Source: Phycisphaerae bacterium (GTDB lineage: Bacteria; Planctomycetota; Phycisphaerae; Phycisphaerales; SM1A02). From it: a stretch of DNA of 40,845 nucleotides. Made by a program: the position numbers and the translations under genes. Under the pieces are notes generated by a model. That model was not told where the DNA came from. It did not search any database and was given only the letters and a program-made list of their open reading frames with translations. The DNA lies in NCBI GenBank assembly GCA_002862305.1, contig PKCS01000025.1:1-40845 (forward strand), in the 5' to 3' direction. This document shows positions 416-24,637 of this stretch, piece after piece. Each line of letters opens with the position of its first letter. Within the stretch, counting starts at the first letter, position 1.

Positions 416-1591
416 TCAGAGGACCTCCTCGAGGTCGATCGTCGAGCCCGGGGCGTCCACCCGGCGGACCATGCGGTGGGTCCGCAGGAGCTCCACCAGC
501 CGTGCCATGTCCGAGCGGAGCGGGGCGGTGTAGCGCACCGGCTGTCCGCTCGCGGGATGGGTGAAGCCCAGGGTGGTGGCGTGGAGCGCCTGCCGTCCGA
601 TGAGCGGCTCGGACCCGAGGCCCTCCGCGAGGTCGCCCTCCACCAGCCGGCGCCCGCCGTAGACGTCGTCCCCCACGATCGGGAACCCCAGGTAGGCCAG
701 GTGCACCCTGATCTGGTGGGTGCGTCCGGTGTGCAGCTCCAGCTCGACCAGGGTGTAGCCCTCGTACGCCTCGCGCACCCGGTAGATGGTGAGCGCATCC
801 TTGGCCTGCTCGTCGTAGCGGACCGCGTAGCGCTCGCGGACCGTGGGGTGGCTGCCGAGGGGGTGGTCGATCCGGTCCGCCCAGGGGGTGAGCTCCCCGT
901 GGACCACCGCCAGGTACCGCTTGCTGGTCTGGCGTTGCTCGAACTGCCGGCCGAGCCGCCAGTGCGCGGTGTCGCTCTTGGCCGCGACCATCACCCCGCT
1001 GGTGTGGCGGTCCAGCCGGTGCACGACCCCCGGTCGGCAGTGCTCCTCGCCGACGGAGGAGAGGCCGCCGCTGGTGCGGTTCTGGAAGTGCCAGCTGAGG
1101 GCGTTGATCAGGGTCCCCGACCGCCGGCCCCGCGCGGGGTGCACGATGATGTCCGGCTGCTTGTTGATCACGATGAGGTCCTGGTCCTCGTGCAGCACGT
1201 CGAGGGGGAGCTCCTCGGGGGGGATCTCGTTGCTGGGGGGCGGGGGGAGGGTGGTCTCCACCAGGTCCCCCCGACGAAGCCGGGTGGACGCCTTGGCGAC
1301 CCGCCCGTTGACGGTGACCGCCTGCTCGGCGATGAGTCGCTGGAGGGTGGTGCGGGACATGAACGGGACCTTGTCCACCAGGTACCGGTCGAGTCGCTTC
1401 TGGAGGTCTCGGCTGAGCTGGAAGCGCACCCGGGCCTGGGTCTCGGCGTCCCCGTCCTCCCCGGAGGCGTAGAAGGCGAAGAGTGCGTCGCGATCGACCT
1501 TGCCACCGCGGGCGATCAGGGGGCCCCCGGCGTGGTCGCCCGGGTCATCCTGCCGCTCGTCCCCGGGATCCGGCTCAGTCGCTTCCGTCAC
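416..1591 (-). CDS. rluD: RluA/RluD-family 23S rRNA pseudouridine synthase
   Basis: Isomerises uridines to pseudouridine in large-subunit rRNA. An N-terminal S4 RNA-binding domain (from RLDRYLVDKVPFMSRTTL) is followed by the catalytic domain with the signature HRLDRHTSGVMV; the catalytic Asp is about residue 194. The later HTGRTHQIRVH motif also fits the RluA family. A GTG at 1591 is chosen as start because GAGG lies 6 bases before it. An upstream GTG at 1615 in the same frame lacks a good ribosome site and would add eight residues. The start lies inside the end of the upstream gene (stop at 1575), so the two are probably translationally coupled. The N-terminal 65 or so residues are acidic and low in complexity. 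Family assignment is firm; RluD rather than another RluA member is likely but not proven. Confidence 0.9.
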   Translation of the reverse strand: MTEATEPDPGDERQDDPGDHAGGPLIARGGKVDRDALFAFYASGEDGDAETQARVRFQLSRDLQKRLDRYLVDKVPFMSRTTLQRLIAEQAVTVNGRVAKASTRLRRGDLVETTLPPPPSNEIPPEELPLDVLHEDQDLIVINKQPDIIVHPARGRRSGTLINALSWHFQNRTSGGLSSVGEEHCRPGVVHRLDRHTSGVMVAAKSDTAHWRLGRQFEQRQTSKRYLAVVHGELTPWADRIDHPLGSHPTVRERYAVRYDEQAKDALTIYRVREAYEGYTLVELELHTGRTHQIRVHLAYLGFPIVGDDVYGGRRLVEGDLAEGLGSEPLIGRQALHATTLGFTHPASGQPVRYTAPLRSDMARLVELLRTHRMVRRVDAPGSTIDLEEVL

Positions 1592-2441
1592 CGGGCGCCT
1601 CGGTGCTTCCCTCACCGCCCTGCAGGATCAGGTTCGTGGCGTCCCGGGCGGACGCGTCGCCCTCGCCCGCTTCCCCCGCGGCGGGTGGTTCGGCACCGGC
1701 TTCGGAAGTCCCCAGCAGGACGCTGGGGTCGGGGAGGTCCGCGGCGGGCTCCGGCTGGGGGAGGTCCTGGGCCAGCGGGAAGCTCACCTTGGTGGTGATG
1801 ATGGTGTCCATCCGCTGCTCGGCCTGGCGGACCAGCTCGGGGTACTGGGGGGCCGCGACGGTCTTGATGCGCTCGAGGATCGACCGGGTCTGCTCGGTGT
1901 CACCGCGGCTTTCCGCCACCGCGGCCTGCCCGAAGAGGGCGCTCACCACCAGCAGCTTGCGCGCGAAGACCGCCTCGTAGTCGCCCACCGCGACGATCGC
2001 CTCCGCGTAGAGGGCGTCCGCGCGCTGGAGGAACAGGGTCCGGGTGTCGTCGTCGAGCTCGTAGTCCTCGGCGCTCGCCTCGCGATCGAAGCGTGCCCCG
2101 GTCTGGACGCTGCCCAGGTACTGGTCGGCGGCCCGCATCAGTGCCAGCGGGGTCACGGCGTCCACCCCACGCGCGCCTTCCGCGATCTCCTCGAGGGAGG
2201 CGGGCAGCTGGGCGCTGTCCAGGTTCGCCCAGGCGGTGTCGCGGGTCTCGCTCCGGGTGCGCTCGAGCCACTGCCAGCCCACGCCCAGCAGCGCCACCAC
2301 CAGGACCGCCAGGAGGATCTGGTTGCCCCACTTCTTCAGCCAGTCGATGAACTCCTCGTTGAGCTGGCTTTCCCCGAGGTCCGACTGCTCGACCTGGGCG
2401 AGGCGATTCTGTTCATTGTCCGGGGGTGACTTCTTGGCCAT
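1575..2441 (-). CDS. Membrane-anchored tetratricopeptide-like protein (YfgM-like)
   Basis: A 288-residue protein with a charged cytoplasmic N-terminus, one transmembrane helix (ILLAVLVVALLGVGWQWL, about residues 48-65) and an extracytoplasmic helical region. That region has alternating Ala/Leu-rich helices such as the one around LFLQRADALYAEAIVAVGDY, like the TPR-type domain of YfgM/CcmG-like ancillary proteins. The C-terminal 70 residues are Pro/Glu/Gly-rich and probably disordered. ATG 2441 is chosen over an in-frame upstream start at 2567 because GGAG precedes it by 8 bases and the MAKKSPPDNEQ start looks natural. A sigma70-like promoter lies 45 bases upstream. The rluD gene overlaps its 3' end. 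A role as a periplasmic chaperone or scaffold is inference by resemblance. Confidence 0.7.
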   Translation of the reverse strand: MAKKSPPDNEQNRLAQVEQSDLGESQLNEEFIDWLKKWGNQILLAVLVVALLGVGWQWLERTRSETRDTAWANLDSAQLPASLEEIAEGARGVDAVTPLALMRAADQYLGSVQTGARFDREASAEDYELDDDTRTLFLQRADALYAEAIVAVGDYEAVFARKLLVVSALFGQAAVAESRGDTEQTRSILERIKTVAAPQYPELVRQAEQRMDTIITTKVSFPLAQDLPQPEPAADLPDPSVLLGTSEAGAEPPAAGEAGEGDASARDATNLILQGGEGSTEAPGDGSD

Positions 2442-2545: not shown

Positions 2546-3481
2546 CTAGGCCCGATCGCACCACCAATCGAGCCCCCGTTCGAGGACCCCGAGGCAGCCC
2601 TCCAGGTGCGCGCGCCCGCCCTCACTGGCCAGGAACGCCGGGGTGGTGGCGGCCAGCAGGATCCGGCGGGCCATCGCGAGCTCCTCGATCCGGGCTCCGT
2701 TCTCGCACCCCAGCCGCTCGCGCTCGATCCGCATGCTCCCCAGGGGGTCCTCGGACGCCAGGCGATCGGGGTGCGACCAGCTCATGCGCTCCAGGTAGAG
2801 CGCGTCCTCCAGCCAGTGCCCCGGCCGGACCTCCCCGAGGTCCACGAGGCAGATCGAGCCGTCGGTCCGTCGCATCGAGTTGCCCAGGTGCAGGTCGCCG
2901 TGGATCCAGCCGATCGGTTCCCGCGAGCGCCAGTGCTCGACGATCCCCTGCCAGTGCGCCTCCGCCCGGCGCAGCTGGGCGCTCCAGCGCTCGTGCTCCG
3001 GCAGCACGTTGTCCGCCAGCACCCGCGCGGTCCGTCGCAACCAGCGGTCCCAGTCGTTCCGCCGCTTCGGTCGATCCACCGGGACCGCCTGCGCGCGGGC
3101 CTGGAACACCGCACCCGCCCGGGCGGTTCCCGCCAGGTTGCCCGGCCGCCACCCGGCCCCGAGCGGCATCCCCGGCAGGCGCTCCATGACCAGCCACCCG
3201 ATGTCGTGGGCGCCGAGGGCGTCACCGCTCGCCAGGAGCCGGGGGACCACGGATGGCGGATCGGTCGACTGCAGCCGACGGCTCCACCGGAGTTCCCGAC
3301 CCGGCACCGGGAACTTCACGAAGACCTCCCGGGGCGGCTGGTCGGGCTCCCGGTAGCTCGCGCACCCGGTCAGCGCCCCGCCGTGCTGCCAGTCCATCCG
3401 CACCCAGCCGATCGGTCCCAGCCGGTCCCCGCACGCACGACGAAGATCGGGTTCGAGGGAGCGGGCGATCGAATCAAGCAT
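2546..3481 (-). CDS. Aminoglycoside phosphotransferase-fold (APH) small-molecule kinase
   Basis: A 311-residue protein of the APH/choline-kinase fold. The catalytic-loop motif WIHGDLHLGN gives the Brenner-type Asp and Asn, followed by the metal-binding VDLGE motif. An N-terminal lobe carries FVKFP (candidate ATP-binding Lys), and VMERLPGMPLG resembles the hinge region. ATG 3481 is preferred to an upstream in-frame ATG at 3667 because AAGGAG lies 9 bases before it and the upstream extension is low in complexity and overlaps the divergent gene. The substrate cannot be read from the sequence; the family includes kinases of sugars, choline, homoserine and antibiotics. It shares a 58-base divergent spacer with the HAD phosphatase, and its 3' end is 104 bases from the next minus-strand gene. 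No direct sign of antibiotic resistance. Confidence 0.8.
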   Translation of the reverse strand: MLDSIARSLEPDLRRACGDRLGPIGWVRMDWQHGGALTGCASYREPDQPPREVFVKFPVPGRELRWSRRLQSTDPPSVVPRLLASGDALGAHDIGWLVMERLPGMPLGAGWRPGNLAGTARAGAVFQARAQAVPVDRPKRRNDWDRWLRRTARVLADNVLPEHERWSAQLRRAEAHWQGIVEHWRSREPIGWIHGDLHLGNSMRRTDGSICLVDLGEVRPGHWLEDALYLERMSWSHPDRLASEDPLGSMRIERERLGCENGARIEELAMARRILLAATTPAFLASEGGRAHLEGCLGVLERGLDWWCDRA

Positions 3482-3527
3482 GGGCTCGGACTCCTTGGTG
3501 GTGCCCGCCGGCGGGGAGTCCGGCTGG

Positions 3528-3533
3528 TAGGCT
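3528..3533 (+). promoter_or_regulatory. -10-like box TAGGCT for a putatively leaderless mRNA
   Basis: TAGGCT ends 6 bases before ATG 3540, and the intervening bases hold no ribosome-binding site. A -10 box at this distance would start the transcript at or next to the ATG. The same layout occurs at 4389, 9940 (minus) and 31565. Confidence 0.35.
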
Positions 3534-3539
3534 GTCCGG

Positions 3540-4388
3540 ATGCACCCCGGTCTCGTCGTCAGCGACCTCGACGGAACCCTCCTGGATCCAGGTGGGGCGC
3601 TGTCCAGCGGCAACCTGATGGCCGCCTCCGAGCTCGCCGCCGCGGGGATACCCCTCATTTTAGCCACGGGCCGATCCTATTACGAGTCCCGTTTCGTGCT
3701 CGACGCGATCCCCTCCTGCCCGCTGGTGATCGGCGCCGCCGGGGCGCTGCTCTCCCACGCGGGCACCGGGGAGACCCTCGACCGGGAACTGCTCGAGGTC
3801 GGCCTGATCGAGTCGCTCACCCAGTTGATCCTGGAGGAAGGACACCTGGTCCAGCTCCTCCAGGATCGTTCCTCCACCGAGGAGGACTACCTGCTGGTGG
3901 GGACCGCGGCACCGCACCCCACCATGGACTGGTGGTTGGAACTCCACGACCTCGCCTCCCACCGCGTGGAGACGCTGGAGGAGGTCGACCTCTCCCACAC
4001 CGTGCGCATCGGGGTGGTGGGGGGGCCGAGTGAACTGGAGGCGCTCACCGAACGGATCCGCACGGCGTACCACGACCGGCTGGTGATCCGGCACTGGCAG
4101 GGGGTCTCCGAACGCGACGACCGCCCGACCTACCTGCTGGAGCTCTTCAATCGCGGCGTCGACAAGTGGTCGATGATCCGCAAGGTCATGGACCAGCGCG
4201 GGCTCGTCCCCGGGGAGGTGGTCGCCATCGGGGACGGGCTCAACGACATCCAGATGCTGAAGGAGGCGGGCCTCGGCATCGCCATGGGCCAGGCGACCGA
4301 CCGGGTCAAGGCCGTCGCGGACCGGGTCGTGTCCGGCAACCACCAGGACGGTTTCGCGGAGGCGATCCGTGGCGTGCTCGGGTCCTGA
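3540..4388 (+). CDS. Cof-type HAD-superfamily phosphatase
   Basis: A 282-residue hydrolase of the haloacid dehalogenase superfamily, subfamily IIB (Cof/YbiV-like), which dephosphorylates sugar phosphates and other small phosphometabolites. All four motifs are visible: I is DLDGT with nucleophile Asp9 and Asp11; II is the Thr in ILATGRS; III is the Lys in GVDKWSM; IV is GDGLND near residue 230. The cap domain between motifs II and III has the C2B size expected of Cof proteins. No Shine-Dalgarno sequence precedes the ATG, but a TAGGCT box does. The next gene starts 13 bases downstream. The substrate is unknown. Confidence 0.88.
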   Translation: MHPGLVVSDLDGTLLDPGGALSSGNLMAASELAAAGIPLILATGRSYYESRFVLDAIPSCPLVIGAAGALLSHAGTGETLDRELLEVGLIESLTQLILEEGHLVQLLQDRSSTEEDYLLVGTAAPHPTMDWWLELHDLASHRVETLEEVDLSHTVRIGVVGGPSELEALTERIRTAYHDRLVIRHWQGVSERDDRPTYLLELFNRGVDKWSMIRKVMDQRGLVPGEVVAIGDGLNDIQMLKEAGLGIAMGQATDRVKAVADRVVSGNHQDGFAEAIRGVLGS

Positions 4389-4394
4389 TACGAT
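4389..4394 (+). promoter_or_regulatory. -10-like box TACGAT in the 13-base spacer before the IOR-like gene
   Basis: The whole spacer after the HAD stop codon consists of TACGAT plus 7 bases, then GTG 4402. There is no Shine-Dalgarno sequence. This fits a leaderless transcript, or simply readthrough from the HAD gene. Confidence 0.35.
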
Positions 4395-4401
4395 CTGATC
4401 G

Positions 4402-7400
4402 GTGCCTGCAGATCCTCCCAGCCCCCACGCCCCCCGGTCCGTCCTCGAGCTCGCGGAAGGGGATGTGCTGATCCCGGCCCTCGACGCCCTGCTCAAGGGC
4501 GTCCTCGAGTCGGAGGTGCCCCTGCACATGCTGCTGGGACCCGCCCGCGGGCCGTTCCACGACCTGCGCGAGGCCGCCGGCCGCGAGACCACCAAGCGTC
4601 TGTTCTCGAGCCACGGGTGCCGGCTGGAGGTGGTCGACGAACCCGGACGCTCGATCGAGATCGGGGCCCGCACCTGCCTTTCGGGGCGCAACGTGATGGT
4701 GCTGCTGCCCGCCGGCGACATCCTGCGTTCCGCCAACGCACTGGTCCGGGTGCGGGAACTGCTGGAGGGCCAGAAGGGCTTCGGCCTGGTCCTGCTGATC
4801 GAGGACGACGTCGAGCGCCTCGAACGCGCGGCGCCCATCCACCTGCTGGAGGACCTCGCGGTCGCCCGGATCGAGCCCAACGACGTCTCCGACCTCCGGG
4901 ACATGGTGGAGGACGGGATCCGCCTGTCCCGCGCCGGCAGCGGTCCCGCGGCGATCCTCGCCTCCAGCACCATCCTCCACTCCATGGACACCATCACCCT
5001 GCGGCCCAACCGCATCGTGGACACCATCGACGTCGCCGCCGCCCTGCGTCGTCGGCGCCGTGCGGGACGTGGCTACGAGTCGATGGAGCTGCTCCGCCTC
5101 GCGCGCCGGCTCGAGCTCAACCACGCGCACGCGTTTCCCAGTCCCGGCGAGATCGCCCCCCTCGGCCTGATCGCGGTGGGGCCCGCGTACTCCGCCGCGG
5201 AGTACCTCCTGCGGTACTTCGGCCTCGAGGGCCGGGTCCCGCTTCTGCAGCTCGGGATCCCCGCGCCCCTGGACCAGTCGATCACCGAGCGGTTGCTGCT
5301 GCGCTGCGAGAACGTGGTGGTGCTCGAGACCCGACCCGGCCTGGTCGGCCGGCAGCTGATCGGGGCCGCGGAGGCCGCCCGGCGCCGTACCGGGAACGCC
5401 GCCTCGGTCTGGTGGGAGGCCCTGCCCGAACGCGACGGGGAGCCGGTGTCCCTGGAGCGCGGCGACGCCCTCCGCGCCTCGAGGGTCGCGCGGAAGATCG
5501 CCCACCTCCTGGATGCCGTCTCCACCGGGGGCACCGTGACCCGCGCCCTCGCGCCCGCCGCCCACGAGCTGGAGCGGCTGGAGGTCCCCTCCCGCGGGGT
5601 GGGGGTCGGCGTGGAGGGCGCGATCCGGACCATGCGCAACCTGCTCAAGGTGACCGCCCAGTGGCTCGATGAGCGCGAGCCTGAACTGGAGAGCGAGCGG
5701 ATCGCCCTGCAGCTGGACGAACGCGTCGACCACGCCCAGTACGACCGGGTGGTGGAGGCGGAACTCTGGGGGCGCCAACGCTTCCTCGCCGACGGCCCGG
5801 CCGCGATCCGGGAGTGCGCATCCGATCCCACCCCCCGGATCCTGGTGATCTGCGACATCGGCTCCGAGGTCGGCATCGACGTGGTCCGACTCGCCACCGC
5901 CTCGGTCCCCGACGAGCACGGGGACCGCGTCACCGTTCGCAGCGTGACGCTGGGCGACCTCGACGAGGTGCTGGAACTGCTCCGCGAGTCGGTGCTTTCC
6001 GACCAGGTCACGGTGGTGGTGGCGCGCGACGGCACCCCGCCCCGGTTCGACCGGACCGCGATCGAGCGATCCTTCCGGGAGATCGACCGCCTCGGCTTCA
6101 CCCCGATGCAGCGCGTGCTCCGCCCCGCGGAGCAGGCCTGCGGGCTCCGCTCGCCGGTCTTCGCCGACCTGCTGGGCACCGGGCTCGACCGCAACAGCGA
6201 GGAGCTCGCGACCACCTTCCGGGTGGACACCCTGCCCCGCCGATTCGCCCGTGGGCTGCTCTTCCGGGTCCGCCCGCTGACCGAGCAGGTGGAGGTGCTC
6301 CGCTCGCGTCCCCCGGTCATCGAACAGCGCGACGCCGGCGGGAACCTGCCCCCGCCGCCCGCGATCCGGCACGCTTCCGCCGCGACCTGGCGATGCCACG
6401 TGGCCGGCTGGCGCGGCGAGGAGCCCGGGCTCGTGCCCAAGATCATCTGCGAGGCGGGACGCGAGATGGGCTACAAGGTCGGGGCGGTGGTCTCCACCCA
6501 GCAGGCCGGTCCGGGACGCGGCTCCTGGGCGCAGGTGCTCTTCACCCGTCCCCGGGAGGGTACTCGCCCGCCCCTGCCGATCTCGATTCCCTACGGGGAG
6601 GCGGACCTCCTGCTGGGCGTGGACCCGGTGGAGTCCCTGCGCGCCCTGGGCCCCGACCCGCAGCTGCGGGTGGCCGGGGCGGGGCGGACCCATGCGGTGG
6701 TCAACATCGGCCTGCTCTCCGACCAGGAGGAACACGCGCGCGGCCGTCCGCAGGGGACCCGCGAACTGCTCCGCGAGGGGATCGAGCAGCGATGTCGCGA
6801 GGACCCCTGGGTCTTCGACCTCGTCGCCCCCGCCCGGCGGACCCTGCTGACCGAACGCCTCATCGACATGATGCTGCTGGGCATCTCGTTCCAGCGCGGC
6901 CTGATCCCGGTCTCGATCGAGGTCCTGGAGCGGGTGATCGAACGCTCGGAACCCGGACGCTTCGGACGCTCCCTGGTGGCCTTCCGCCACGGTCGCACCC
7001 TCGCCACCGGCCTGCCCGCGCCCCGTCATCCCGAGATCAATTCCCGGGAGGTGGAACCGATGATCCGCCGGCTGGTCCGCGGGGTCCGGGTGGATTCCCG
7101 CCGCCGCCGCGGGACCGCGAGGCGGTTCGAGCAGCTGCTCCGGGACAGCATGGCCCAGATGCCCGGCCTGCTGGAGAGTTCGCGCGGTCGTCCCGCGGTC
7201 GCGGATTTCTCGGTCGGGCTCCGCCACGCGCTCGCGTGGGGCGGATTCCCGCTCGCCGAGCGCTTCGCGGACCTCGTGCGCCGGCTCTACCGTGCCGACA
7301 GCGGTGCCCGCTCCCGGCGCACCACCTGCTACGCGATCTACCCCCTGGCGGAGGCGATGCTCATCCGCGACTCGATCTTCATCGCGACCATGACCACCAG

Positions 7401-7788
7401 CATGGAGCAGCGCCTGCGCATCCGTGAGCGGCTGGCGGCGCGCCACGCCCGTGGGGATCGCATCGAACGCCGCTACCTCACCCGCATGGAGCTGATCGTC
7501 GCCCGTCGACGCTTCCGCCTGGACTTCCGCACCAGCGACTGGGGGGCGTGGGCGACCGGCCTGCTGGCCCCGGTGGTGCCGCACGCGTGGCGGGGCAGCC
7601 GTCACGAACGACTGCTGGCCCGGGAGGTCATGGAGCTGGTGGAGTCCGCCATCAGCGGGATGCGGGAGGATCCCGAGCACTGGGAGCACGTCATGCAGAA
7701 GCTGAACCTGCAGGCGGAGATGGGCCGGCTCCGGGTGATGCGCCCCGGGGAGCTGGATCGACTGGTCCGCGACCAGCCCGCGTCCTAG
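4402..7788 (+). CDS. Indolepyruvate:ferredoxin oxidoreductase-like single-chain protein lacking cofactor motifs
   Basis: A 1128-residue protein with the domain order of single-chain indolepyruvate/2-oxoacid:ferredoxin oxidoreductases. Residues about 10-240 resemble the pyrimidine-binding alpha domain, and about 255-330 the transketolase-C-like domain (GLIAVGPAYSAAEYLL, then ENVVVLETRPGLVGRQL). About 475-540 matches only the C-terminal half of the TPP domain. About 676-860 is the gamma domain (from KIICEAGREMGYKVGAVVST to ADLLLGVDPVESL). The remaining 270 residues are like the DUF6537 tail of long IORs. The GD(S/G)-type TPP-binding motif is replaced near residue 484 by CDIGS. There is no CPGC motif, no CxxCxxC ferredoxin cluster and only scattered cysteines. 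Normal enzyme activity with TPP and [4Fe-4S] clusters is therefore doubtful; a structural, regulatory or altered redox role is possible. The start is GTG. The stop overlaps the convergent rlmN stop in a shared CTAG. Confidence 0.65.
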   Translation: MPADPPSPHAPRSVLELAEGDVLIPALDALLKGVLESEVPLHMLLGPARGPFHDLREAAGRETTKRLFSSHGCRLEVVDEPGRSIEIGARTCLSGRNVMVLLPAGDILRSANALVRVRELLEGQKGFGLVLLIEDDVERLERAAPIHLLEDLAVARIEPNDVSDLRDMVEDGIRLSRAGSGPAAILASSTILHSMDTITLRPNRIVDTIDVAAALRRRRRAGRGYESMELLRLARRLELNHAHAFPSPGEIAPLGLIAVGPAYSAAEYLLRYFGLEGRVPLLQLGIPAPLDQSITERLLLRCENVVVLETRPGLVGRQLIGAAEAARRRTGNAASVWWEALPERDGEPVSLERGDALRASRVARKIAHLLDAVSTGGTVTRALAPAAHELERLEVPSRGVGVGVEGAIRTMRNLLKVTAQWLDEREPELESERIALQLDERVDHAQYDRVVEAELWGRQRFLADGPAAIRECASDPTPRILVICDIGSEVGIDVVRLATASVPDEHGDRVTVRSVTLGDLDEVLELLRESVLSDQVTVVVARDGTPPRFDRTAIERSFREIDRLGFTPMQRVLRPAEQACGLRSPVFADLLGTGLDRNSEELATTFRVDTLPRRFARGLLFRVRPLTEQVEVLRSRPPVIEQRDAGGNLPPPPAIRHASAATWRCHVAGWRGEEPGLVPKIICEAGREMGYKVGAVVSTQQAGPGRGSWAQVLFTRPREGTRPPLPISIPYGEADLLLGVDPVESLRALGPDPQLRVAGAGRTHAVVNIGLLSDQEEHARGRPQGTRELLREGIEQRCREDPWVFDLVAPARRTLLTERLIDMMLLGISFQRGLIPVSIEVLERVIERSEPGRFGRSLVAFRHGRTLATGLPAPRHPEINSREVEPMIRRLVRGVRVDSRRRRGTARRFEQLLRDSMAQMPGLLESSRGRPAVADFSVGLRHALAWGGFPLAERFADLVRRLYRADSGARSRRTTCYAIYPLAEAMLIRDSIFIATMTTSMEQRLRIRERLAARHARGDRIERRYLTRMELIVARRRFRLDFRTSDWGAWATGLLAPVVPHAWRGSRHERLLAREVMELVESAISGMREDPEHWEHVMQKLNLQAEMGRLRVMRPGELDRLVRDQPAS

Positions 7789-8873
7789 CCCTGCTCGCGA
7801 CGATGCTGGTGCCGGAGCTGGCCGCAGGCTGCATCGATGTCACGACCCCGGCTCGCCCGGATGTGCACGTTGACCCCGCGCTCGCGCAGCAGGGACTGGA
7901 AGCGGTGGACGTCCGCCGAGACCGGTCGCCGGTAGGGGAGCCCCTCGACCTCGTTGTAGCGGATGAGGTTCACGTTGGCCCGCAGCGATCTCGCCAGTCC
8001 CGCGAGTTCCCGTGCGTGCTCGGGACGGTCGTTGACCTCGCCGAGCAGGATGTACTCCAGGGTGACCTCGCGTCCCGACTCCCGGAAGTACTCGGTGCAG
8101 GCCTCGAGCAGTTCCTCGATCGTCGAACGGTCCGCCCAGGGGATGATCTGCCGTCGCAACTCGTCGTTGGGGGCGTGCAGGCTCAGGGCGAGGGTCACCG
8201 GGAGCTCGAAGCGGGCCAGTCGCCGGATGCCCGCGGGCAGCCCCACGGTGGAGACGGTGATGCGACGTGCGCCGATCCCGAGACCCCAGGAGGCGTTGAG
8301 GGTGCGGATCGCCCCGACCACCCCGGGGAAGTTCACCAGCGGCTCGCCCATCCCCATGAAGACCACGTTCGTGATGCGGCCGACCCCGGCCATCCGGCCG
8401 AGTCGCCACGCCTGCTCGACGATGTTCCCCCGGGTGAGGTTCCCCTCGAGTCCCTCGAGCCCGGAGGCGCAGAACCGGCACCCCACCGGGCACCCCACCT
8501 GGGACGAGATGCAGGCGGTGCGTCGATCCCCGGCGGGGATCATCACGCACTCGGTCTCGCCGGCGGAGGCCGGCTCCAGCAGCGACAGGCCGTTCCCCGT
8601 GGGCTCGACGGTCGGTCCGGTCCACCCCAGCAGCAGCTTGCGGGTGCCGTCGCTCGCGCGGCGTTCGGTGAGCAGCCGGGCGCTCTCGAAGTGGACCAGC
8701 TCCCCGAGCCGTTCACGGTCGCGCCGGGAGACGTTGGTCATCCGGTCGAGTTCGGTCACGCCGCGCTGGTAGACCCATTCCTGCAGCTGGTCGGCCACGA
8801 AGCGCCGGAGGCCGTGCTCGACCACGAACGAACGAAGCTGTTCGCGATCCAGATCGAAGAAGTGCGTGCTCAC
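7785..8873 (-). CDS. rlmN: RlmN, dual-specificity 23S rRNA/tRNA adenine C2 methyltransferase
   Basis: A radical-SAM enzyme that methylates C2 of A2503 in 23S rRNA and A37 in some tRNAs. The cluster motif is Cys128-x3-Cys132-x2-Cys135 (GCPVGCRFCASG). A methyl-accepting Cys sits just before it (ACISSQVGC) and the second catalytic Cys is in the C-terminal AACGQL motif. GMGEPLVNF is the SAM-contact stretch. Its 362 residues match the family length. Its ATG overlaps the ispH stop by four bases, so the two form one coupled unit. The 3' end abuts the convergent IOR-like gene with no spacer. All key residues are present. Confidence 0.95.
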   Translation of the reverse strand: MSTHFFDLDREQLRSFVVEHGLRRFVADQLQEWVYQRGVTELDRMTNVSRRDRERLGELVHFESARLLTERRASDGTRKLLLGWTGPTVEPTGNGLSLLEPASAGETECVMIPAGDRRTACISSQVGCPVGCRFCASGLEGLEGNLTRGNIVEQAWRLGRMAGVGRITNVVFMGMGEPLVNFPGVVGAIRTLNASWGLGIGARRITVSTVGLPAGIRRLARFELPVTLALSLHAPNDELRRQIIPWADRSTIEELLEACTEYFRESGREVTLEYILLGEVNDRPEHARELAGLARSLRANVNLIRYNEVEGLPYRRPVSADVHRFQSLLRERGVNVHIRASRGRDIDAACGQLRHQHRREQG

Positions 8874-9928
8874 CCGCTCCTGCCGACCGTGAGATCCACC
8901 GAGGAGTGGGGGATCCGCTGCTCGTCGAGCCAGGCCTCGATCTCGTCGCCCATGTTGACGTGGATGCGTCGTCCCTTGGGATCGACCCCGCGGGAGCGCA
9001 TCGCCTTCTTGAGCGAGCCGGGGAGCCCGAACTCGACGTCCTCGCGGTCCACGTGGTGCTGTTCCACGTGCCCGCCGTACTCCTCGATCAGGCGGGTGAT
9101 CACGTCCCGGACCAGGTCCTCGGGCGCGCTCGCGCCGGCGGTGATCAGCACCGTGTCCACGCCCTCGAACCAGTCGCCCCGGATCTCCGAGGCGTCGTCG
9201 ACCAGGAAGGCCCCGGTGCCGACGTTCTGCGAGATCTCGGTGAGCCGGACCGAGTTCGAGCTGTTGCGGCTGCCGACCACCAGCACCAGGTCGGCGCTCG
9301 GGGCCAGCGCGCGCACCGCCCGCTGTCGGTTGGTGGTGGCGTAGCAGATCGAGTTCGAACTCGGGTCCTTGATGTCGGGGAACCGCTCCTTCAGGATCCC
9401 GATGATCTCGGCCGCGTCGTCGGTCGAGAGGGTGGTCTGGGTCAGGTAGGCGAGCCGGACGTCCGGGTCGATCTCGAGCCGCCGGGCGTCCTCCTCGGAT
9501 TCGACCACGGTGATCGAATCCGGCACCTCGCCACGGGTGCCGATGACCTCCTGGTGGTCCGCATGCCCGATCAGCAGGATGTGGTAGTCCTTCCGCGAGA
9601 GGCGGATCGCCTCCGCATGGACCTTGGTCACCAGCGGGCAGGTGGCATCGACCGCGATCAGGCGGCGATTGTCCGTCTGTTCCCGGATCTGGGGCGAGAC
9701 CCCGTGGGCGCTGAAGACCACGATCGCCTCGTCGGGGGCGTCCGCGATGTCCTCCACGAACAGGACGCCCCGGTCACGGAACCGCTCGACCACGTGCCGG
9801 TTGTGGACGATCTCGTGGTAGACGCAGATCGTCTCGTCGGGACAGATCTCCAGCAGCTGGTCCACGACGTCGATCGCCATGTACACGCCGGCACAGAATC
9901 CTCGGGGGTTGGCCAGGATGATCTTCAC
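8870..9928 (-). CDS. ispH: IspH, 4-hydroxy-3-methylbut-2-enyl diphosphate reductase
   Basis: The last enzyme of the MEP isoprenoid pathway, a [4Fe-4S] reductase that makes IPP and DMAPP from HMBPP. Three cluster cysteines are present: Cys12 (GFCAGV), Cys97 (DATCPLVTK) and Cys195 (SICYATTNRQ). The catalytic Glu region GHADHQEVIG and the substrate-binding TQTTLS and NSSNS stretches are also there. GTG 9928 is chosen over an upstream ATG at 9985 because it puts the first Cys at residue 12, as in E. coli IspH. A TATGAT box lies 6 bases before the GTG and no ribosome site is evident. It is first of two genes with rlmN, and divergent from the squalene operon that consumes its products after farnesyl diphosphate synthesis. 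Confidence 0.94.
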   Translation of the reverse strand: MKIILANPRGFCAGVYMAIDVVDQLLEICPDETICVYHEIVHNRHVVERFRDRGVLFVEDIADAPDEAIVVFSAHGVSPQIREQTDNRRLIAVDATCPLVTKVHAEAIRLSRKDYHILLIGHADHQEVIGTRGEVPDSITVVESEEDARRLEIDPDVRLAYLTQTTLSTDDAAEIIGILKERFPDIKDPSSNSICYATTNRQRAVRALAPSADLVLVVGSRNSSNSVRLTEISQNVGTGAFLVDDASEIRGDWFEGVDTVLITAGASAPEDLVRDVITRLIEEYGGHVEQHHVDREDVEFGLPGSLKKAMRSRGVDPKGRRIHVNMGDEIEAWLDEQRIPHSSVDLTVGRSG

Positions 9929-9934
9929 CCCCAG

Positions 9935-9940
9935 ATCATA
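9935..9940 (-). promoter_or_regulatory. -10-like box TATGAT before ispH
   Basis: TATGAT (minus strand, 9940-9935) is followed by 6 bases and GTG 9928. It sits in a 55-base divergent spacer shared with hpnC; a TAGAGT at 9965-9970 could serve hpnC on the plus strand. No convincing -35 box is seen. Confidence 0.35.
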
Positions 9941-9983
9941 CCCTCGCGGGGGCCCGTGGTCGGCTAGAGTGTCCAATACAGCC

Positions 9984-10943
9984 ATGTCCAGTGCCGTCCT
10001 GCCAGTACGAGACCAGGTCCGCCTCTGGGGCCCCGGATCCGGTACCCACCTCGGGCCCGGGGAGTCGGTCGCGTACTGCCGGGCGCTGGCGGGGGACCAC
10101 TACGAGAACTTCTCGGTCCTGAGTTCCCTGGTCCCGCGCTCCCTGCGGGACGACTTCGCGGCGGTGTACGCCTTCTGCCGCTGGTCGGACGACCTCTCCG
10201 ACGAGATCGGGGACCCCGAGCGCTCCCGGGAACTGCTCGGCTGGTGGCGTTCCGAACTCGACGGGTGCTTCGCGGGAAGCCCCACCCACCCCGTGATGTG
10301 CGCCCTGGAGGCCACCATCCGCCGCCACGAGCTCCCCGAGCGGCCGTTCCACGACCTGATCGACGCGTTCGTGCAGGACCAGGAACTCACCCGCTACGAG
10401 AGCTGGCACCAGCTGCTCCACTACTGCTCGCGCAGCGCCGATCCGGTGGGCCGCCTGGTGCTGATGATGCTCGGGGAGCCGCGGGAGGAAAGCCACTTCG
10501 GCCCGTCCGACCACATCTGCACCGCCCTCCAGCTGACCAACCACTGGCAGGACGTCTCGCGGGACATCCTCGAGCGGGACCGGCTCTACATCCCCGCGGA
10601 ACTGATCGCCCCGCCGGACTTCGAGTCGCGCCTGCTCCGCTCCGCGCGACAGGGGTACGCGGTCGACGAGCGGTTCCTCGAGGAGAGCCGCGAGGTGATC
10701 CGGCTCTGCGTCGACCGGACCGAATCGATGTTCGAGTCAGGGAGCGTGCTGCTGGATCGCCTCGCCCCGCGCTCCCGACCGGTGATCCGTCTGTTCCTCG
10801 AGGGTGGTTGCCACGTGCTGGGTTTGATCCGGCAGTGGAACTACGAGACCGCCATCCACCGCCCGCGGCTCTCCAGGATCGTCAAGTTCGGGCTGGTGGC
10901 CCGGGCCTGGACCTCGGCCCGCCTCGCGGGGGGAGGCGCCTGA
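9984..10943 (+). CDS. hpnC: HpnC, hydroxysqualene synthase
   Basis: A member of the trans-isoprenyl diphosphate synthase (squalene/phytoene synthase) family. In the HpnCDE route HpnC converts presqualene diphosphate to hydroxysqualene. The two Asp-rich metal-binding motifs are visible: CRWSDDLSDE near residue 70 and WQDVSRDILERDRLYIP near residue 190. The protein has 319 residues from ATG 9984; an upstream in-frame ATG would run through the ispH start and is rejected. The gene stops in a TGATG overlap with hpnD. HpnC rather than HpnD is assigned from gene order and the shape of the second motif. The neighbours make a carotenoid (phytoene) role unlikely. Confidence 0.88.
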   Translation: MSSAVLPVRDQVRLWGPGSGTHLGPGESVAYCRALAGDHYENFSVLSSLVPRSLRDDFAAVYAFCRWSDDLSDEIGDPERSRELLGWWRSELDGCFAGSPTHPVMCALEATIRRHELPERPFHDLIDAFVQDQELTRYESWHQLLHYCSRSADPVGRLVLMMLGEPREESHFGPSDHICTALQLTNHWQDVSRDILERDRLYIPAELIAPPDFESRLLRSARQGYAVDERFLEESREVIRLCVDRTESMFESGSVLLDRLAPRSRPVIRLFLEGGCHVLGLIRQWNYETAIHRPRLSRIVKFGLVARAWTSARLAGGGA

Positions 10944-11890
10944 TGCCCGGTAGCGCACCCCCCGGCACCCTCGCCCCGGTTCCGCTCGCGCAGGCGCTCG
11001 AGCGCTGCAGCACCGACGTGCGGTCCCGCGCGCGGAACTTCTGGTTCGGGCTTCGATTGCTGCCCGAGGAGCACTTCCACTCGCTGTGCACCGTCTATTC
11101 GTGGATGCGACTGGCGGACGACCTCGCCGACGGCGAGGAAGGCGGGGACCGTGCGGACCGGCGCGAGGCCCTCGAGGGGCTCCGCCACCGCACCCTCGCG
11201 CTCTTCGACGGCGGCGCCCCGGAGGTGGTGCTGCCCGCGGAGTCGCACATCATGCCCGCGATGCGTCGCCTGCTCGACCGGCATGAACTGGACCCGCGCG
11301 ACTTCGATCGGATGATCGACGGCCAGCTCTCGGACCTCGACGCCCGGGTGGTCGAGACCCGGGCCCAGCTGCTCGAGTACTGCGACCAGGTCGCCTCCAC
11401 GGTGGGGCGGATCTGCGTGCGGATCTGGGGCGGCACCAGCGAGTCGTGCCTCGAACTCGCCACCGAACGCGGCAAGGCCCTCCAGCTGACCAACATCCTG
11501 CGGGACGTCCGCGAGGACCACGGTCGCCAGCGGCAGTACCTCCCGGAGGAGGAACTGCACGCCGCCGGCCTCGATCGCGAGGTCCTCGCCGCCTGGGGAC
11601 GCCCCGGACCCTGCCGTGCGTTCGTCCTCGACCAGGTCGCCCGGGCGGAGGCCCACTACCAGCGGGCCCGGGGACTCGAATCGATGATCGAGCCGGCTTG
11701 TCGTCCCACCAGCCTGGCGATGACCCGCATCTACCACGCGCTGCTGGCGAAGATCGGGAGCCGGCCCGAGCTGATCTCCGGTGTGCAGCGGATCCGCCTC
11801 AGTTCCTTCCGCAAGTTCTCGATCGCGGTGCGGGCCCGCCGGGAGGCGCGCAGGGCGGGGAGCCGGCGGCTCGCGGAGTCGATCCGATGA
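10943..11890 (+). CDS. hpnD: HpnD, presqualene diphosphate synthase
   Basis: Condenses two farnesyl diphosphates head to head to presqualene diphosphate, the first committed step to squalene. The 315-residue all-helical synthase has the first motif in RLADDLADG and the second in NILRDVREDHGRQRQYLP. Its ATG shares one base with the hpnC stop and is preceded by GGGGGAG, a good ribosome site. Its own stop overlaps the hpnE start in ATGA. The basic C-terminal tail, rich in Arg, may contact the membrane or HpnE. The family is certain; the split between HpnC and HpnD is based on the second motif (DVxED) and on order in the operon. Confidence 0.88.
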   Translation: MPGSAPPGTLAPVPLAQALERCSTDVRSRARNFWFGLRLLPEEHFHSLCTVYSWMRLADDLADGEEGGDRADRREALEGLRHRTLALFDGGAPEVVLPAESHIMPAMRRLLDRHELDPRDFDRMIDGQLSDLDARVVETRAQLLEYCDQVASTVGRICVRIWGGTSESCLELATERGKALQLTNILRDVREDHGRQRQYLPEEELHAAGLDREVLAAWGRPGPCRAFVLDQVARAEAHYQRARGLESMIEPACRPTSLAMTRIYHALLAKIGSRPELISGVQRIRLSSFRKFSIAVRARREARRAGSRRLAESIR

Positions 11891-13266
11891 AGCGGCGGGT
11901 GGTGATCGTCGGTGGCGGACTCGCGGGGATGGCCGCGGCCCTGAGGGTGCTGGACGCCGGCGACCAGCCGGTGCTGGTCGAGGGACGACCCCAGCTCGGG
12001 GGTCGGGCGACCAGTTTCCGGGATCCCCGTACCGGGGAGCTCCTCGACAACTGCCAGCACGTGGTGATGGGCTGCTGCACCAACCTCCTGGACTTCTACG
12101 ACCGCATCGGGGTGGGAGACCTGATCGAGTGGCACCCCGAGACCTACTGGGCGAACCCTCCGCACGAGCCCGACGTGATGCGTCCCGGGCCCCTGCCCGC
12201 CCCGGCCCACTTCTCGCTGAGCTTCGCGCGGATGCGGTTCCTCGACCTGCGCAGCAAGCGGGCGATCGCCCGGGCGATGCTGCGCATGATCCGGATCGGC
12301 CGCGCGGGACGGGCCGGCTGGACCGATCGCACCTTCCTCGAGTTCCTCGAGGAGACCGGGCAGACCCCGGAGGCGATCGACCTGTTCTGGCGGGTGGTGG
12401 TGGTGAGTGCCTGCAACCTCGACCTCGACGAGGTCGGGGCCTCCTTCGCCCTGCAGGTCTTCCAGGAGGGCTTCCTCGCCCACCGGTTCGCCTCCAGCAT
12501 GGGGCTGGCCCGCGTCGCGCTCTCGGAGCTCTACGACCCCTTCGAGGAACACCTGCGCGCCCACGGCGGGGAGCTGCAGCTTTCGACCAACGCGCTCGCG
12601 ATCTCCTGGGACGGTCGACGGGTCACCGGCGTGGTCACCAAGGACGGGGTGCTCGAGGGCGCCGCGGTGATCGCCGCCGTGCCCTTCGAACGGCTCGCCA
12701 GGCTGTGTTCCGAGTCCCTGGTCGCCGCGGATCCCCGGCTGCAGAAGCTGGACCGCATGGAAACCAGCCCGATCCTCGGCGTCCACCTCTTCTTCGACGC
12801 CACGGTGATGGAACTCCCGCACCTGGTGCTGCCCGGTCGCGACACCCACTGGTTCTTCAACAAGGGCGTCGACGAGCAGGGCCGCCAGCACCTCCACGCG
12901 GTGATCAGCGCCGCGACCGACTGGATGGCCCTCGATCAGACCGAGATCCTCGAACGGGTGATGCGGGACCTGACCTGGGCCCTGCCCGCCGCCCGCGGCC
13001 TGGAGCCGATCGGCCACCGGGCGATCAAGGAGAAGCGGGCGACCTTCCGCGCCGGCGCCGGGGTGGACCGGATCCGCCCGCCGGTGCGTGCCGGGCTCGG
13101 GGTCGAGAACCTGCTGCTCGCGGGCGACTGGTGCGACACCGGCTGGCCGGCCACCATGGAGGGCGCAGTGCGCAGCGGCTACCTCGCGGGGGCCGAGGCG
13201 AGTGGGGGGGTCGCCGGGGTGCCGGACCTGCCGGTCTCCGCGGGTGGAAGACTGCTGGGCCTGTGA
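11887..13266 (+). CDS. hpnE: HpnE, hydroxysqualene dehydroxylase (FAD-dependent)
   Basis: A 459-residue flavoprotein of the phytoene-desaturase/amine-oxidase fold that reduces hydroxysqualene to squalene. The N-terminal Rossmann motif VIVGGGLAGMAAAL, with Glu about 20 residues later (LVEGRPQLGGRATSF), binds FAD. The C-terminal LLAGDWCDTGWPATMEGA is the second FAD-contact region typical of the family. A four-base ATGA overlap links it to hpnD, and its stop overlaps the start of queG. With hpnC and hpnD it completes the three-enzyme squalene route; no squalene-hopene cyclase is in the window. Confidence 0.9.
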   Translation: MKRRVVIVGGGLAGMAAALRVLDAGDQPVLVEGRPQLGGRATSFRDPRTGELLDNCQHVVMGCCTNLLDFYDRIGVGDLIEWHPETYWANPPHEPDVMRPGPLPAPAHFSLSFARMRFLDLRSKRAIARAMLRMIRIGRAGRAGWTDRTFLEFLEETGQTPEAIDLFWRVVVVSACNLDLDEVGASFALQVFQEGFLAHRFASSMGLARVALSELYDPFEEHLRAHGGELQLSTNALAISWDGRRVTGVVTKDGVLEGAAVIAAVPFERLARLCSESLVAADPRLQKLDRMETSPILGVHLFFDATVMELPHLVLPGRDTHWFFNKGVDEQGRQHLHAVISAATDWMALDQTEILERVMRDLTWALPAARGLEPIGHRAIKEKRATFRAGAGVDRIRPPVRAGLGVENLLLAGDWCDTGWPATMEGAVRSGYLAGAEASGGVAGVPDLPVSAGGRLLGL

Positions 13267-14387
13267 TGGCGACGCCTCCTTCCCAACCGCTGCTGGAGGG
13301 CTCGCTGCTCGAGCGTTCCCGGCCCGCGCGAACGCGGCTCCTGCTGGAAGCGGGCGAGCGGCTCGGGTTCGCGCACGTCGGGGTGTGCAGCGCGGAGCCC
13401 GTCGACCGGCGGGAGCAGCTCTCCAACTGGCTGGCCGAGGGCAAGCACGGGGAGATGCACTACCTCTCGGACCGGGTGGAGGCGATGCTCGATCCCGGAT
13501 CGGTGCTGGAGGGTGCCCGTTCGATCATCTGCGTGGCCGATCGCTACGCGTCCGCCTCCGAGGAGTCCGTCCCCGCGGCCCCCCGGGGCCGCATCGCGCG
13601 GTACGCCCGGGGCCGGGACTACCACGACGTCCTTCGTCGCCGACTCGCTCGACTGGCGGCCGCCATCGAGGACCACGCCCCCGGCCACCGCGCTCGCGGG
13701 GTGGTGGACACCGCGCCGTTGATGGAACGCGAGCACGCGTTGCGGGCGGGCCTCGGGCTGATCGGCAAGAACACCCTGATGATCCGGCCCGGGGAGGGAT
13801 CCTGGATGGTGCTGGGCGAGGTCCTGACCACCCTCGAACTGGAGCCCGGTCCCGAACCGGAGTGGGGGGGGCGGGGCGACCCCTGCGGCTCCTGCACGCG
13901 GTGCATCGATGCCTGCCCGACCTCGGCGATCGAGCCCTTCACCATCGACGCCACGCGGTGCGTCAGCTACCAGACGATCGAGCATCGGGGTCCGATCGAT
14001 CCCGAGGGGCATCGATCGATCGGGGACTGGCTCTTCGGCTGCGACGTGTGCCAGGAGGTCTGCCCGCACAACCTGCCCCAGCGCCGGGTCGGCAGCCTCC
14101 CGGTGCTCGATCCCTACCGGCCCCGTCGGGACGGGTTCGACCTCCTGGAGGTGCTGGACTGGCGCGAGGAGGACCGTCGGTCCGCCTTCACCACCAGTTC
14201 CCTCAAGCGGGCCAAGCTCGAGACCTTCAAGCGCAATGCGCTGATCTGCGCCGGCAACGCCCTCGAGGAGGGGCACCACCCCGAGCTTCGGGCGCGGATC
14301 GGGGCGCTTGCGGAGGACGAGTCCGAACCGGCCCTGGTCCGCGACACCGCCCGGGCGGTCCTCGAGCGACTCCCCCCGGGGGACTGA
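13266..14387 (+). CDS. queG: QueG, epoxyqueuosine reductase
   Basis: A cobalamin-dependent, iron-sulfur enzyme that reduces epoxyqueuosine to queuosine in tRNA wobble positions. Two ferredoxin-like motifs are clear, CGSCTRCIDACP and CDVCQEVCPHN. The catalytic Asp lies in VDTAPLMEREHA, and GLIGKNTLMI is a family signature. Its 373 residues fit the family. The ATG shares one base with the hpnE stop, so it is cotranscribed with the squalene genes, with which it has no evident pathway link. The C-terminal 50 residues resemble the HEAT-like tail of longer QueG forms. It converges on a lipoprotein gene 33 bases away. Confidence 0.94.
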   Translation: MATPPSQPLLEGSLLERSRPARTRLLLEAGERLGFAHVGVCSAEPVDRREQLSNWLAEGKHGEMHYLSDRVEAMLDPGSVLEGARSIICVADRYASASEESVPAAPRGRIARYARGRDYHDVLRRRLARLAAAIEDHAPGHRARGVVDTAPLMEREHALRAGLGLIGKNTLMIRPGEGSWMVLGEVLTTLELEPGPEPEWGGRGDPCGSCTRCIDACPTSAIEPFTIDATRCVSYQTIEHRGPIDPEGHRSIGDWLFGCDVCQEVCPHNLPQRRVGSLPVLDPYRPRRDGFDLLEVLDWREEDRRSAFTTSSLKRAKLETFKRNALICAGNALEEGHHPELRARIGALAEDESEPALVRDTARAVLERLPPGD

Positions 14388-14420
14388 TTCGTCGTTCGTT
14401 GCCTCATCCGGGGGTGCTGG

Positions 14421-20449: not shown

Positions 20450-20472
20450 CGGCTCACTCCGCCGGTCGCGGC

Positions 20473-23424: not shown

Positions 23425-23731
23425 TGGAGTAGGTCCATCGTGAAACGGATGCGAGCTGGGACAGTGCCGTATTCTGGCATGACTCGCAGTGAAATGGGGA
23501 CCCTATCCACCATGATTGCGAACTTCCTGCAGGTTCCCCGGGCAGGAACCGCGCCACCACCGGGGCGGATCCGACCGGGCGGAAGGCGGCCGGGCACCAC
23601 CCCCGCGGGTCGCCAGCCGACTCCGCTCGGGCCTCCGCTCCCGGATGATTACGGGACCTCTCGACCGGCGCCCGCGGCGGACGCGGGACCTTCCACCGCA
23701 CATCGCCTACCATCCACGGACGGACCCCTTC
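23425..23731 (+). other. 307-base divergent spacer between glutamate dehydrogenase and ribF
   Basis: No gene is supported here, although an open frame runs in from 23516. It holds two overlapping inverted repeats, TTCCTGC/GCAGGAA (23524-23530, 23542-23548) and GGTTCC/GGAACC (23532-23537, 23545-23550). A GC hairpin CCCGCG-GCGGA-CGCGGG lies at 23671-23687. A TACCAT box at 23708-23713 could be the ribF -10 element. No FMN riboswitch is recognisable. Confidence 0.4.
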
Positions 23732-24637
23732 ATGAATTCCCTGACCATCGGCAACTTCGACGGCGTGCACCTCGGCCACCGGGCCCTGGTCGAGCGTGCC
23801 CGAAGCCTCTGTCCCGGAGGGGAGGTCGTGGCGGTGACCTTCGAGCCCCACCCCGCGGAGGTCCTGGACACCCGCAACTGCCCGCCCCGACTGACCACCT
23901 CCGTGCGCCGTCGCGAGCTCCTGGAGGCGCTGGGCGTCGACCGGGTGGTCGAGCTCGAGCCGACCCCGGACCTGCTGGGCCTCGACGGGGACGCCTTCAT
24001 CGAGCACCTGCGGGCCTCGCTGCCCTTCGACGTGGTCGTGGAAGGGCCCGACTTCCGATTCGGTCGCCACCGGGCCTCGGGCGTCTCGCAGCTGCAGGAC
24101 ATCGGCCGGAACCTCGGGTTCGACGTCGAACTGGTCGAGGAACGACGGGTGGTCCTCGAGGACCGGACCGAGCTGGAGGTCCGCTCCACCGCGATCCGCT
24201 GGTTGCTGGCCCACGGCCGGGTGGTCGACGCGGCACGGGCCCTCGGCCGGCCGCACCAGGTCACCGGGGTGGTGGTCAAGGGCGACCAGCGGGGCCGGGA
24301 CCTCGGCTACCCCACCGCCAACCTCGGGCAGCAGCACGAACTGCTCCCCGCCGACGGCGTCTACGCGGGACGGGCGATCCTCCCCGACGGGACCTCGCTC
24401 CCCGCCGCGATCAGCGTGGGCACCAAGCCGACCTTCGGCGCCAGCGACCGGGTCTGCGAGGCGCACCTGGTCGATCACGACGCCCCCCTCGACGAGTACG
24501 GCTGGCCGATCCGCATCGAGTTCACCCGGTACCTGCATCCGCAGTACGCCTTCGACGGCGTGGAACCGCTGATCGAGCGCATGGCGCGGGACTGCGACGA
24601 GGTCCGCCTCTTCTCTGGAGAACTGAACGCGTCATGA
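23732..24637 (+). CDS. ribF: RibF, bifunctional riboflavin kinase/FAD synthetase
   Basis: Converts riboflavin to FMN and FMN to FAD. The N-terminal adenylyltransferase domain opens directly with TIGNFDGVHLGHRAL, containing the HxGH nucleotidyltransferase motif, and later has FEPHPAEVL. The C-terminal flavokinase domain carries KGDQRGRDLGYPTANLG with the conserved PTAN, and ends near residue 300. The length of 301 is typical. The ATG at 23732 is the natural start because the catalytic motif begins six residues later; the ribosome site is weak. It overlaps nrnA by four bases (ATGA), a known pairing in bacterial genomes. FAD from RibF could serve HpnE nearby, but no direct link is shown. Confidence 0.94.
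   Translation: MNSLTIGNFDGVHLGHRALVERARSLCPGGEVVAVTFEPHPAEVLDTRNCPPRLTTSVRRRELLEALGVDRVVELEPTPDLLGLDGDAFIEHLRASLPFDVVVEGPDFRFGRHRASGVSQLQDIGRNLGFDVELVEERRVVLEDRTELEVRSTAIRWLLAHGRVVDAARALGRPHQVTGVVVKGDQRGRDLGYPTANLGQQHELLPADGVYAGRAILPDGTSLPAAISVGTKPTFGASDRVCEAHLVDHDAPLDEYGWPIRIEFTRYLHPQYAFDGVEPLIERMARDCDEVRLFSGELNAS

Follow-up and report, generated by a model that had tools for sequence, protein, structure and literature searches.

A probable pseudoenzyme derived from single-chain indolepyruvate:ferredoxin oxidoreductase as a core gene in one Phycisphaerales family

Introduction

What does a gene encode that keeps the outline of a large redox enzyme over its entire length and lacks the motifs by which that enzyme holds its cofactors? 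This question is raised by a gene of the planctomycete Phycisphaerae bacterium, here called IORL, on contig PKCS01000025.1 of GenBank assembly GCA_002862305.1 (2.67 Mb in 103 contigs), which was analyzed over its positions 1 to 40,845 (the window). An earlier note, made from the DNA sequence alone, had described the frame at 4402-7788 as a relative of single-chain indolepyruvate:ferredoxin oxidoreductase (IOR) without cofactor sites. The analysis leads us to regard IORL as probably an ancient and conserved pseudoenzyme of single-chain IOR. The parts of this reading that are directly supported are the full-length descent, the loss of ligand residues, the retention of the gene, purifying selection, the predicted fold and the gene neighborhood. 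In the following, f1 denotes the Phycisphaerales family of the window, f4, f5 and f6 denote related families, and L- and G-numbers denote loci and genomes, respectively.

Relationship to the long IOR family

Both the assignment to single-chain IOR and the claim that the domain order of the long enzymes is retained were borne out by profile comparison. The NCBIfam model of the long IOR family, PRK13030, matches the window protein at E 9e-15, its score of 53.4 bits falling short of the 816 bits set as cut-off; this cut-off is not decisive for membership, because the intact IOR of L034 falls below it as well (448.8 bits). When a profile of 62 family members was aligned with four intact long IORs by hhalign, the two matched over 1011 columns (probability 100%, E 1.6e-65). 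The order PYR-TKC-PP-gamma-DUF6537-like was thus recovered over the full length from this alignment and the structural matches, those to OFOR and PFOR extending to residue 870. The earlier note had pointed to Pfam for a check of the domains; a Pfam search of the window protein gave nothing at E <= 1, and the relationship emerged from the NCBIfam and hhalign comparisons. A sequence search of the PDB gave nothing at E <= 10. The flavin- or CoA-linked role that had been considered gained no sign from these searches: Pfam called no such motif and the PDB sequence search was empty to E 10, no motif search by hand having been made.

The clean frame of 1128 codons claimed for the gene exists, although a slightly later start is possible because most alignments of homologs begin near residues 1-20. 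An antisense open reading frame (ORF) of 1127 amino acids lies at 4306-7689. It is open in only 3 of 62 homologous stretches, one of them the window, and contains 914 stops in all, whereas the sense frame is open in all 62; two stretches with stops in the sense frame (L053 and L106) had been dropped beforehand from the 65 available. The antisense ORF is incidental.

Loss of the ThDP and iron-sulfur ligands

The window protein has 10 cysteines in total, and a motif scan found no CxxC, CxxCxxC, CPGC or GD(G/S/A)(T/S)(F/Y) in it. The absence of the thiamine diphosphate (ThDP) and CPGC motifs, as first noted, is a property of the family: CPGC, GDGT(F/Y) and CxxCxxC are all missing from 40 of 48 homologs, comprising all 35 f1 members examined (two of them fragments), four of f4 and one of f6. 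The other eight, from f5 and f6, retain CPGC and CxxCxxC; seven of these carry GDGT(F/Y) and one (L041) has GDAAY. CPGC is not universal in long IORs, since three annotated references do not match it but share CxGCPH.

The same loss is seen column by column in an alignment of 32 f1 members with 17 IORs (14 intact ones and three references). What GDG, Asn and Glu do in OFORs is stated in PMC5020499, and the catalytic Glu for the aminopyrimidine N1' was assigned by alignment. This Glu (column of L034 E76) is present in 17/17 IORs and 0/32 f1 members, the Asp of GDG in 17/17 and 1/32, and the Mg-ligand Asn (L034 N539, window residue 486) in 17/17 and 0/32. These three columns are likewise lost in f4 and L044 and are all retained in L041. 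The alignment thus holds no intact ThDP ligand set for f1, and the predicted fold remains in the structural model. The suggestion that CDIGS replaces GD(S/G) did not hold: the GDG loop aligns with residues 457-460 (GRQR), and CDIGS falls at the site of the Mg-ligand Asn. The statement that every cysteine cluster is gone stood in part; eight of nine Cys columns checked are lost in f1, but the first Cys of the CxxCxxC cluster (C580 in the window protein) is kept in 27 of 32 members.

The 17 IORs share 162 columns with a conservation of 94% or higher. Scored as kept where the same residue occurs in at least 60% of the f1 rows, 48 of these are kept and 114 lost. Lost and kept columns numbered 29 and 9 in PYR, 10 and 7 in TKC, 51 and 6 in PP, 17 and 18 in gamma, and 7 and 8 in the C-terminal domain. 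The ThDP loop reads GDGTFFHSG in intact enzymes, GDAAYFHTG in L041, SGRDFFANG in L044 and ERRRVPTVG in three of four f4 members, and is variable in f1 (e.g., GRQRFLADG). On the aligned residues, these forms can be read as a series from intact enzymes through L041, L044 and f4 to f1, the order not being a proven history. In L041 (G041), the altered loop is combined with complete retention of Glu, Asp, Asn and the nine cysteines. A specific take-over of the ThDP site by Arg was considered and rejected: the share of Arg in the switched columns (11 of 35) is not significantly above that in conserved columns (66 of 288; hypergeometric p 0.14), and it goes along with an overall drop of Lys from 4.7% to 0.9%.

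Selection and shift of constraint

The frame is free of stops in 63 of 65 matched stretches. Ratios of nonsynonymous to synonymous substitution (dN/dS) were calculated by the Nei-Gojobori method and are rough, because dS is near or above 1. Compared with L050 (77% identity), the ratio is 0.138 for IORL and 0.205 for the HAD gene, 0.196 for APH, 0.176 for RlmN, 0.146 for HpnC and 0.112 for IspH. With L051, it is 0.208 for IORL, against 0.487 (HAD), 0.256 (HpnC), 0.214 (IspH), 0.204 (RlmN) and 0.147 (RluD), and with L052, 0.277 against 0.405 (HAD), 0.336 (HpnC), 0.258 (APH), 0.250 (IspH), 0.224 (RlmN) and 0.194 (RluD). The values are thus not near one and lie within or near the range of the neighbors, toward its higher end in the comparison with L052, so IORL is constrained much like the genes around it. 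These substitution patterns indicate that IORL is under purifying selection, and the opinion that it is selected rather than decayed can be upheld. Neither a broken frame nor neutral evolution, the marks of a pseudogene, is found in IORL, with L053 and L106 as exceptions.

The constraint is distributed differently in the two groups. Mean pairwise identity among the 14 intact IORs is 0.64 in PYR, 0.49 in TKC, 0.65 in PP, 0.58 in gamma and 0.47 in the C-terminal domain; among the 32 f1 members the corresponding values are 0.33, 0.44, 0.30, 0.45 and 0.39. Judged from these identities, PYR and PP, which form the ThDP pocket, have passed from the most conserved to the least conserved domains. Among the columns listed, D562, G565, E628, R634, H657, H666 and G669 are invariant in the 32 f1 rows, besides P730, and family-specific Arg residues stand in place of loop glycines at 671 and 706. 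The invariance of P730 and G732-D735 (alignment A2) is partly built in, because the loci were fetched by a pattern over these residues.

Distribution and intact relatives

A scan of named genomes with a single peptide pattern yielded 68 loci, 65 with long-stretch matches and three with short ones (Bacteroidetes, Lokiarchaeota). The long matches are nearly all labeled Planctomycetota, Phycisphaerae or Phycisphaerales; a few are labeled 'uncultured bacterium', and L094 is labeled Chitinophaga pinensis. A match was found in 50 of 61 related genomes, and in 35 of the 37 f1 genomes, the two misses being assemblies that are 54% and 72% complete. IORL is therefore a core gene of f1 and, as a rule, single-copy. 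A class-wide search matched 108 of 198 genomes, with intactness checked for a minority of the matches; seven further class members that were fetched proved intact (7/7).

Apart from IORL, the window genome gave no match to IOR alpha, and none at all to POR or POR_N. Among 25 f1 genomes tested, G012 and G015 have a further IOR-like locus and G023 has a second degenerate copy. The idea that IORL is the partner of an intact IOR was rejected as a general explanation, given the content of the window genome.

In a quick tree from all columns, f1, f4 and L044 group together (98, starred), and in quick trees without the PP columns the grouping received 94 and 93, not starred. L041 stands beside the degenerate clade in the all-column tree (82), its place being open without the PP columns. 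A single origin of the ligand loss in f1, f4 and L044 thus appears likely from the aligned proteins; it falls short of proof, as these are quick trees with long branches that carry neither bootstrap values nor an approximately unbiased (AU) test.

Two relatives deserve separate mention. Matches of family f15, such as L133 (G086), lie in open frames of about 1,600-1,900 codons, some 400 codons longer than usual; L133, the sole f15 frame examined, is intact. In L127 (G057, 6196-14725), a degenerate IOR-like gene is flanked by two genes, one for a ketoacyl synthase and one for an E1 dehydrogenase-transketolase-lipoyl-KAS III fusion.

Predicted structure

An AlphaFold2 model of IORL built with 62 sequences has a mean predicted local distance difference test score (pLDDT) of 86.2 and a predicted TM-score (pTM) of 0.83. 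Searched against the PDB with Foldseek, it matched PFOR/OFOR entries (best E 1.7e-12, 2c3y_B), whole-chain TM-scores being about 0.3. VIA-align gave Z 27.0 for 9bt4_A (315 residues aligned, root-mean-square deviation (rmsd) 4.2) and Z 25.5 for the PFOR 6cip_A (503 aligned, rmsd 4.7). The OFOR fold was recovered in these comparisons: PYR and TKC are well covered by OFOR/PFOR matches of Z 24-27, and gamma through the PFOR matches only. Matches to OFOR alpha chains span residues 17-385 approximately and those to PFOR extend to residue 870, the C-terminal domain beyond it being barely covered.

The PP domain modeled alone has a pLDDT of 80.0. The 50 entries listed for it in a structural comparison all belong to ThDP enzymes, the best reaching Z 9.7 over 140 aligned residues (rmsd 4.6), and Foldseek gave one match at E <= 0.001, for which reason the score for a ThDP-enzyme fold is regarded as moderate. 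The structure prediction proposed earlier thus gave an OFOR fold and, with moderate scores, the PP fold of ThDP enzymes. These matches suggest that the predicted fold is retained while the ligands are gone.

Gene neighborhood

IORL lies in a recurrent f1 block, GT4-RluD-unknown-APH-HAD-IORL-RlmN-IspH-HpnC-HpnE, in which RluD and HpnE are working labels for an RluA-family gene and an amine-oxidase-type gene; the features of the window are collected in Table 1. Counts in 43 long f1 loci are 43 for the HAD-like gene, 41 for RlmN, 38 for IspH, 38 for the unknown gene and 37 for RluD. The HAD gene matches Hydrolase_3 of Pfam (E 4.4e-42), scores 73.9 with the HAD-SF-IIB profile TIGR01484, above the cut-off of 41.8, and scores 129.3 with Cof TIGR00099, slightly under its own cut-off of 137. 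Its sequence shows the motifs typical of HAD proteins.

Upstream sequence of 1 kb or more is available for 59 of the 66 loci examined, and in 57 of these 59 HAD is the nearest upstream gene among the genes searched, on the same strand in 54. The gap between HAD and IORL is short in most loci. A search for the neighbors of the window found no HAD gene in 19 loci that hold intact relatives or further degenerate ones (L134 offering only about 0.4 kb upstream), and no shared partner gene appeared in four loci of intact and f4/f6 relatives annotated in part.

Table 1. Location of IORL, its domains and neighboring genes in the window.
Feature	Position	Strand	Remark
IORL, IOR-like pseudoenzyme gene (probable), 1128 codons	4402..7788	+	GTG start as called
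PYR-like domain, residues 17-215	4450..5046	+	catalytic Glu column lost, 0/32
Transketolase-C-like (TKC) domain, residues 226-385	5077..5556	+	one of two best-conserved domains in family
PP-like domain, residues 392-626	5575..6279	+	predicted ThDP-enzyme fold; GDG/Asn/CxGCPH/CxxCxxC lost; least conserved
Codons 457-460 (G-R-Q-R)	5770..5781	+	at place of GDGT of intact enzymes
Codons 484-488 (CDIGS)	5851..5865	+	at Mg-ligand Asn place of intact enzymes, not GDG
Gamma (POR-like) domain, residues 661-870	6382..7011	+	with TKC best-conserved; loop glycines replaced by Arg at 671, 706
C-terminal DUF6537-like domain, residues 884-1128	7051..7785	+	from profile alignment; uncalled by Pfam here
HAD-IIB phosphatase gene (Cof-like)	3540..4388	+	13 bases upstream of IORL
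RlmN gene	7785..8873	-	convergent, conserved neighbor
IspH (LytB) gene	8870..9985	-	conserved neighbor
APH-type kinase gene	2546..3667	-	divergent; in many but not all loci
RluA-family pseudouridine synthase gene (label RluD)	416..1615	-	conserved neighbor

Two other regions of the window may be recorded here. On the plus strand at 9879-13266, an HpnC-type squalene synthase gene, a second frame matching squalene/phytoene synthases and a gene for an amine-oxidase-type flavoprotein likely form a hopanoid cluster. At 20134-25695, also on the plus strand, an ORF of 1853 codons overlaps several long ORFs of the minus strand, among them 20473-23424, and either strand is a candidate for coding.

Possible functions of IORL

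IORL probably has a job other than that of the ancestral enzyme. It descends over its full length from a single-chain IOR whose Mg/ThDP and iron-sulfur ligand residues were lost in the family and, as an ancient pseudoenzyme, would be incapable of ThDP-dependent oxidative decarboxylation or of electron transfer to ferredoxin. Constraint has moved off PYR and PP, leaving TKC and gamma as the best-conserved domains. IORL may thus be a ligand-binding or scaffold protein with the TKC/gamma region as its working part, possibly produced together with the upstream HAD phosphatase and possibly regulating or serving it. In a more specific model, offered as speculation, TKC and gamma of this cofactor-free core protein would make up a ligand site of a new kind, with the family-invariant Arg, His and Glu along its walls. 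This site would sense a metabolite, either phosphorylated or acyl, and control the adjacent HAD-IIB phosphatase.

Several observations weigh against this picture or parts of it. The frame is interrupted in a same-genus genome (G004:C37, L005/L053) and in L106, either by assembly error, as may perhaps be the case, or by real loss. G023, an assembly with 7% contamination, carries two copies of IORL. Errors of alignment, which is less secure in PP, and the stronger divergence of the 32 f1 rows may account for part of the drop of identity in that domain. The HAD gene is inverted in L067, L083 and L105, was not found in L060 and L102, and is separated from IORL by 683 bases in L091; moreover, its adjacency is only moderate evidence for joint function because the whole block is syntenic.

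The role proposed for the phosphatase may be put more strictly, as a special case of the pseudoenzyme reading, in which IORL is a regulatory or structural subunit specific to the HAD-IIB phosphatase in a two-protein complex. The upstream position of HAD in 57 of 59 loci, 54 times on the same strand and also in L071, L081, L089 and L107 where other genes of the block were not found, agrees with such a complex, as does the gap of 13 bases in the window; the synteny of the entire block, the three inverted HAD genes and the lack of such a gene in the flanks searched around the degenerate relatives f4 and L044 speak against it, and we regard this strict form as doubtful. Rather unlikely, in our judgment, is a neofunctionalized enzyme with a new active site on the OFOR scaffold (for instance, where TKC and gamma meet) that works with a different cofactor, such as CoA, a nucleotide or a sugar phosphate, or with none. 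The seven invariant residues from D562 to G669 and the Arg residues at 671 and 706 could belong to such a site, but the Pfam search, being empty, gave no motif for a new catalytic activity or cofactor, the excess of Arg at switched columns is not significant and parallels the general loss of Lys, and the invariance around P730 partly stems from the fetch pattern.

That IORL is still an OFOR, binding ThDP and/or its clusters through other residues, is very improbable: the PP and PYR folds retained in the models and the single cluster Cys column kept in 27 of 32 members would suit such an enzyme, but at least 31 of the 32 members lack the residue in each of the Glu, Asp and Asn columns, the other cluster cysteines are lost too, and PP is the least conserved domain. 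Hardly credible is a decaying remnant or annotation artefact, with the antisense ORF as the real gene. It could appeal to the fast evolution of PP, to the broken frames of L053 and L106 and to the length of the antisense ORF in the window; it is already contradicted by the 63 stop-free stretches, the 914 stops of an antisense frame open in 3 of 62, dN/dS values of 0.14-0.28 that resemble those of housekeeping neighbors, and the core distribution in 35 of 37 f1 genomes.

Comparison with known systems

Pseudoenzymes are a known kind of protein, and in pseudoenzymes of ThDP families such as TKTL1 part of the ThDP site is lost and the fold retained. Searches of one open-licence library listed no paper on a conserved pseudoenzyme of OFOR type; within their reach, a family-wide core OFOR-type pseudoenzyme without both ThDP and iron-sulfur ligands is new. 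Standard profiles have left this core gene of a Phycisphaerales family unnamed (no Pfam match, and an NCBIfam match below the cut-off), and counting it as an IOR in metabolic reconstruction would probably be wrong. It also offers a clean comparison: its order and class contain intact relatives, L041 has an altered loop with its ligands kept, a whole clade lacks both ligand sets, and the shift of constraint between domains is measurable.

IORL resembles the single-chain IOR family (NCBIfam PRK13030 NF009589 and PRK13029 NF009588) in its full-length homology and domain order, and differs from it in lacking the Mg/ThDP ligands, the catalytic Glu, CxGCPH and the CxxCxxC clusters, and in having its constraint in other domains. 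The closest intact homologs found are long IORs from the order and class of the window genome (L031-L034, L037-L039 and L131-L137), with which the degenerate clade groups as a relative. Unlike IORL, these keep GDGT(F/Y) or GDST(F/Y), CPGC and the cysteines, and have no HAD neighbor in the loci tested. The PYR, TKC and gamma regions of IORL are predicted to fold as in PFOR/OFOR, but the protein has no cofactor ligands and shows 9-13% identity in the OFOR matches listed. Compared with pseudoenzymes of the TKTL1 type, IORL belongs to a different family, has lost the iron-sulfur cysteines as well, and is kept as a gene by a whole bacterial family.

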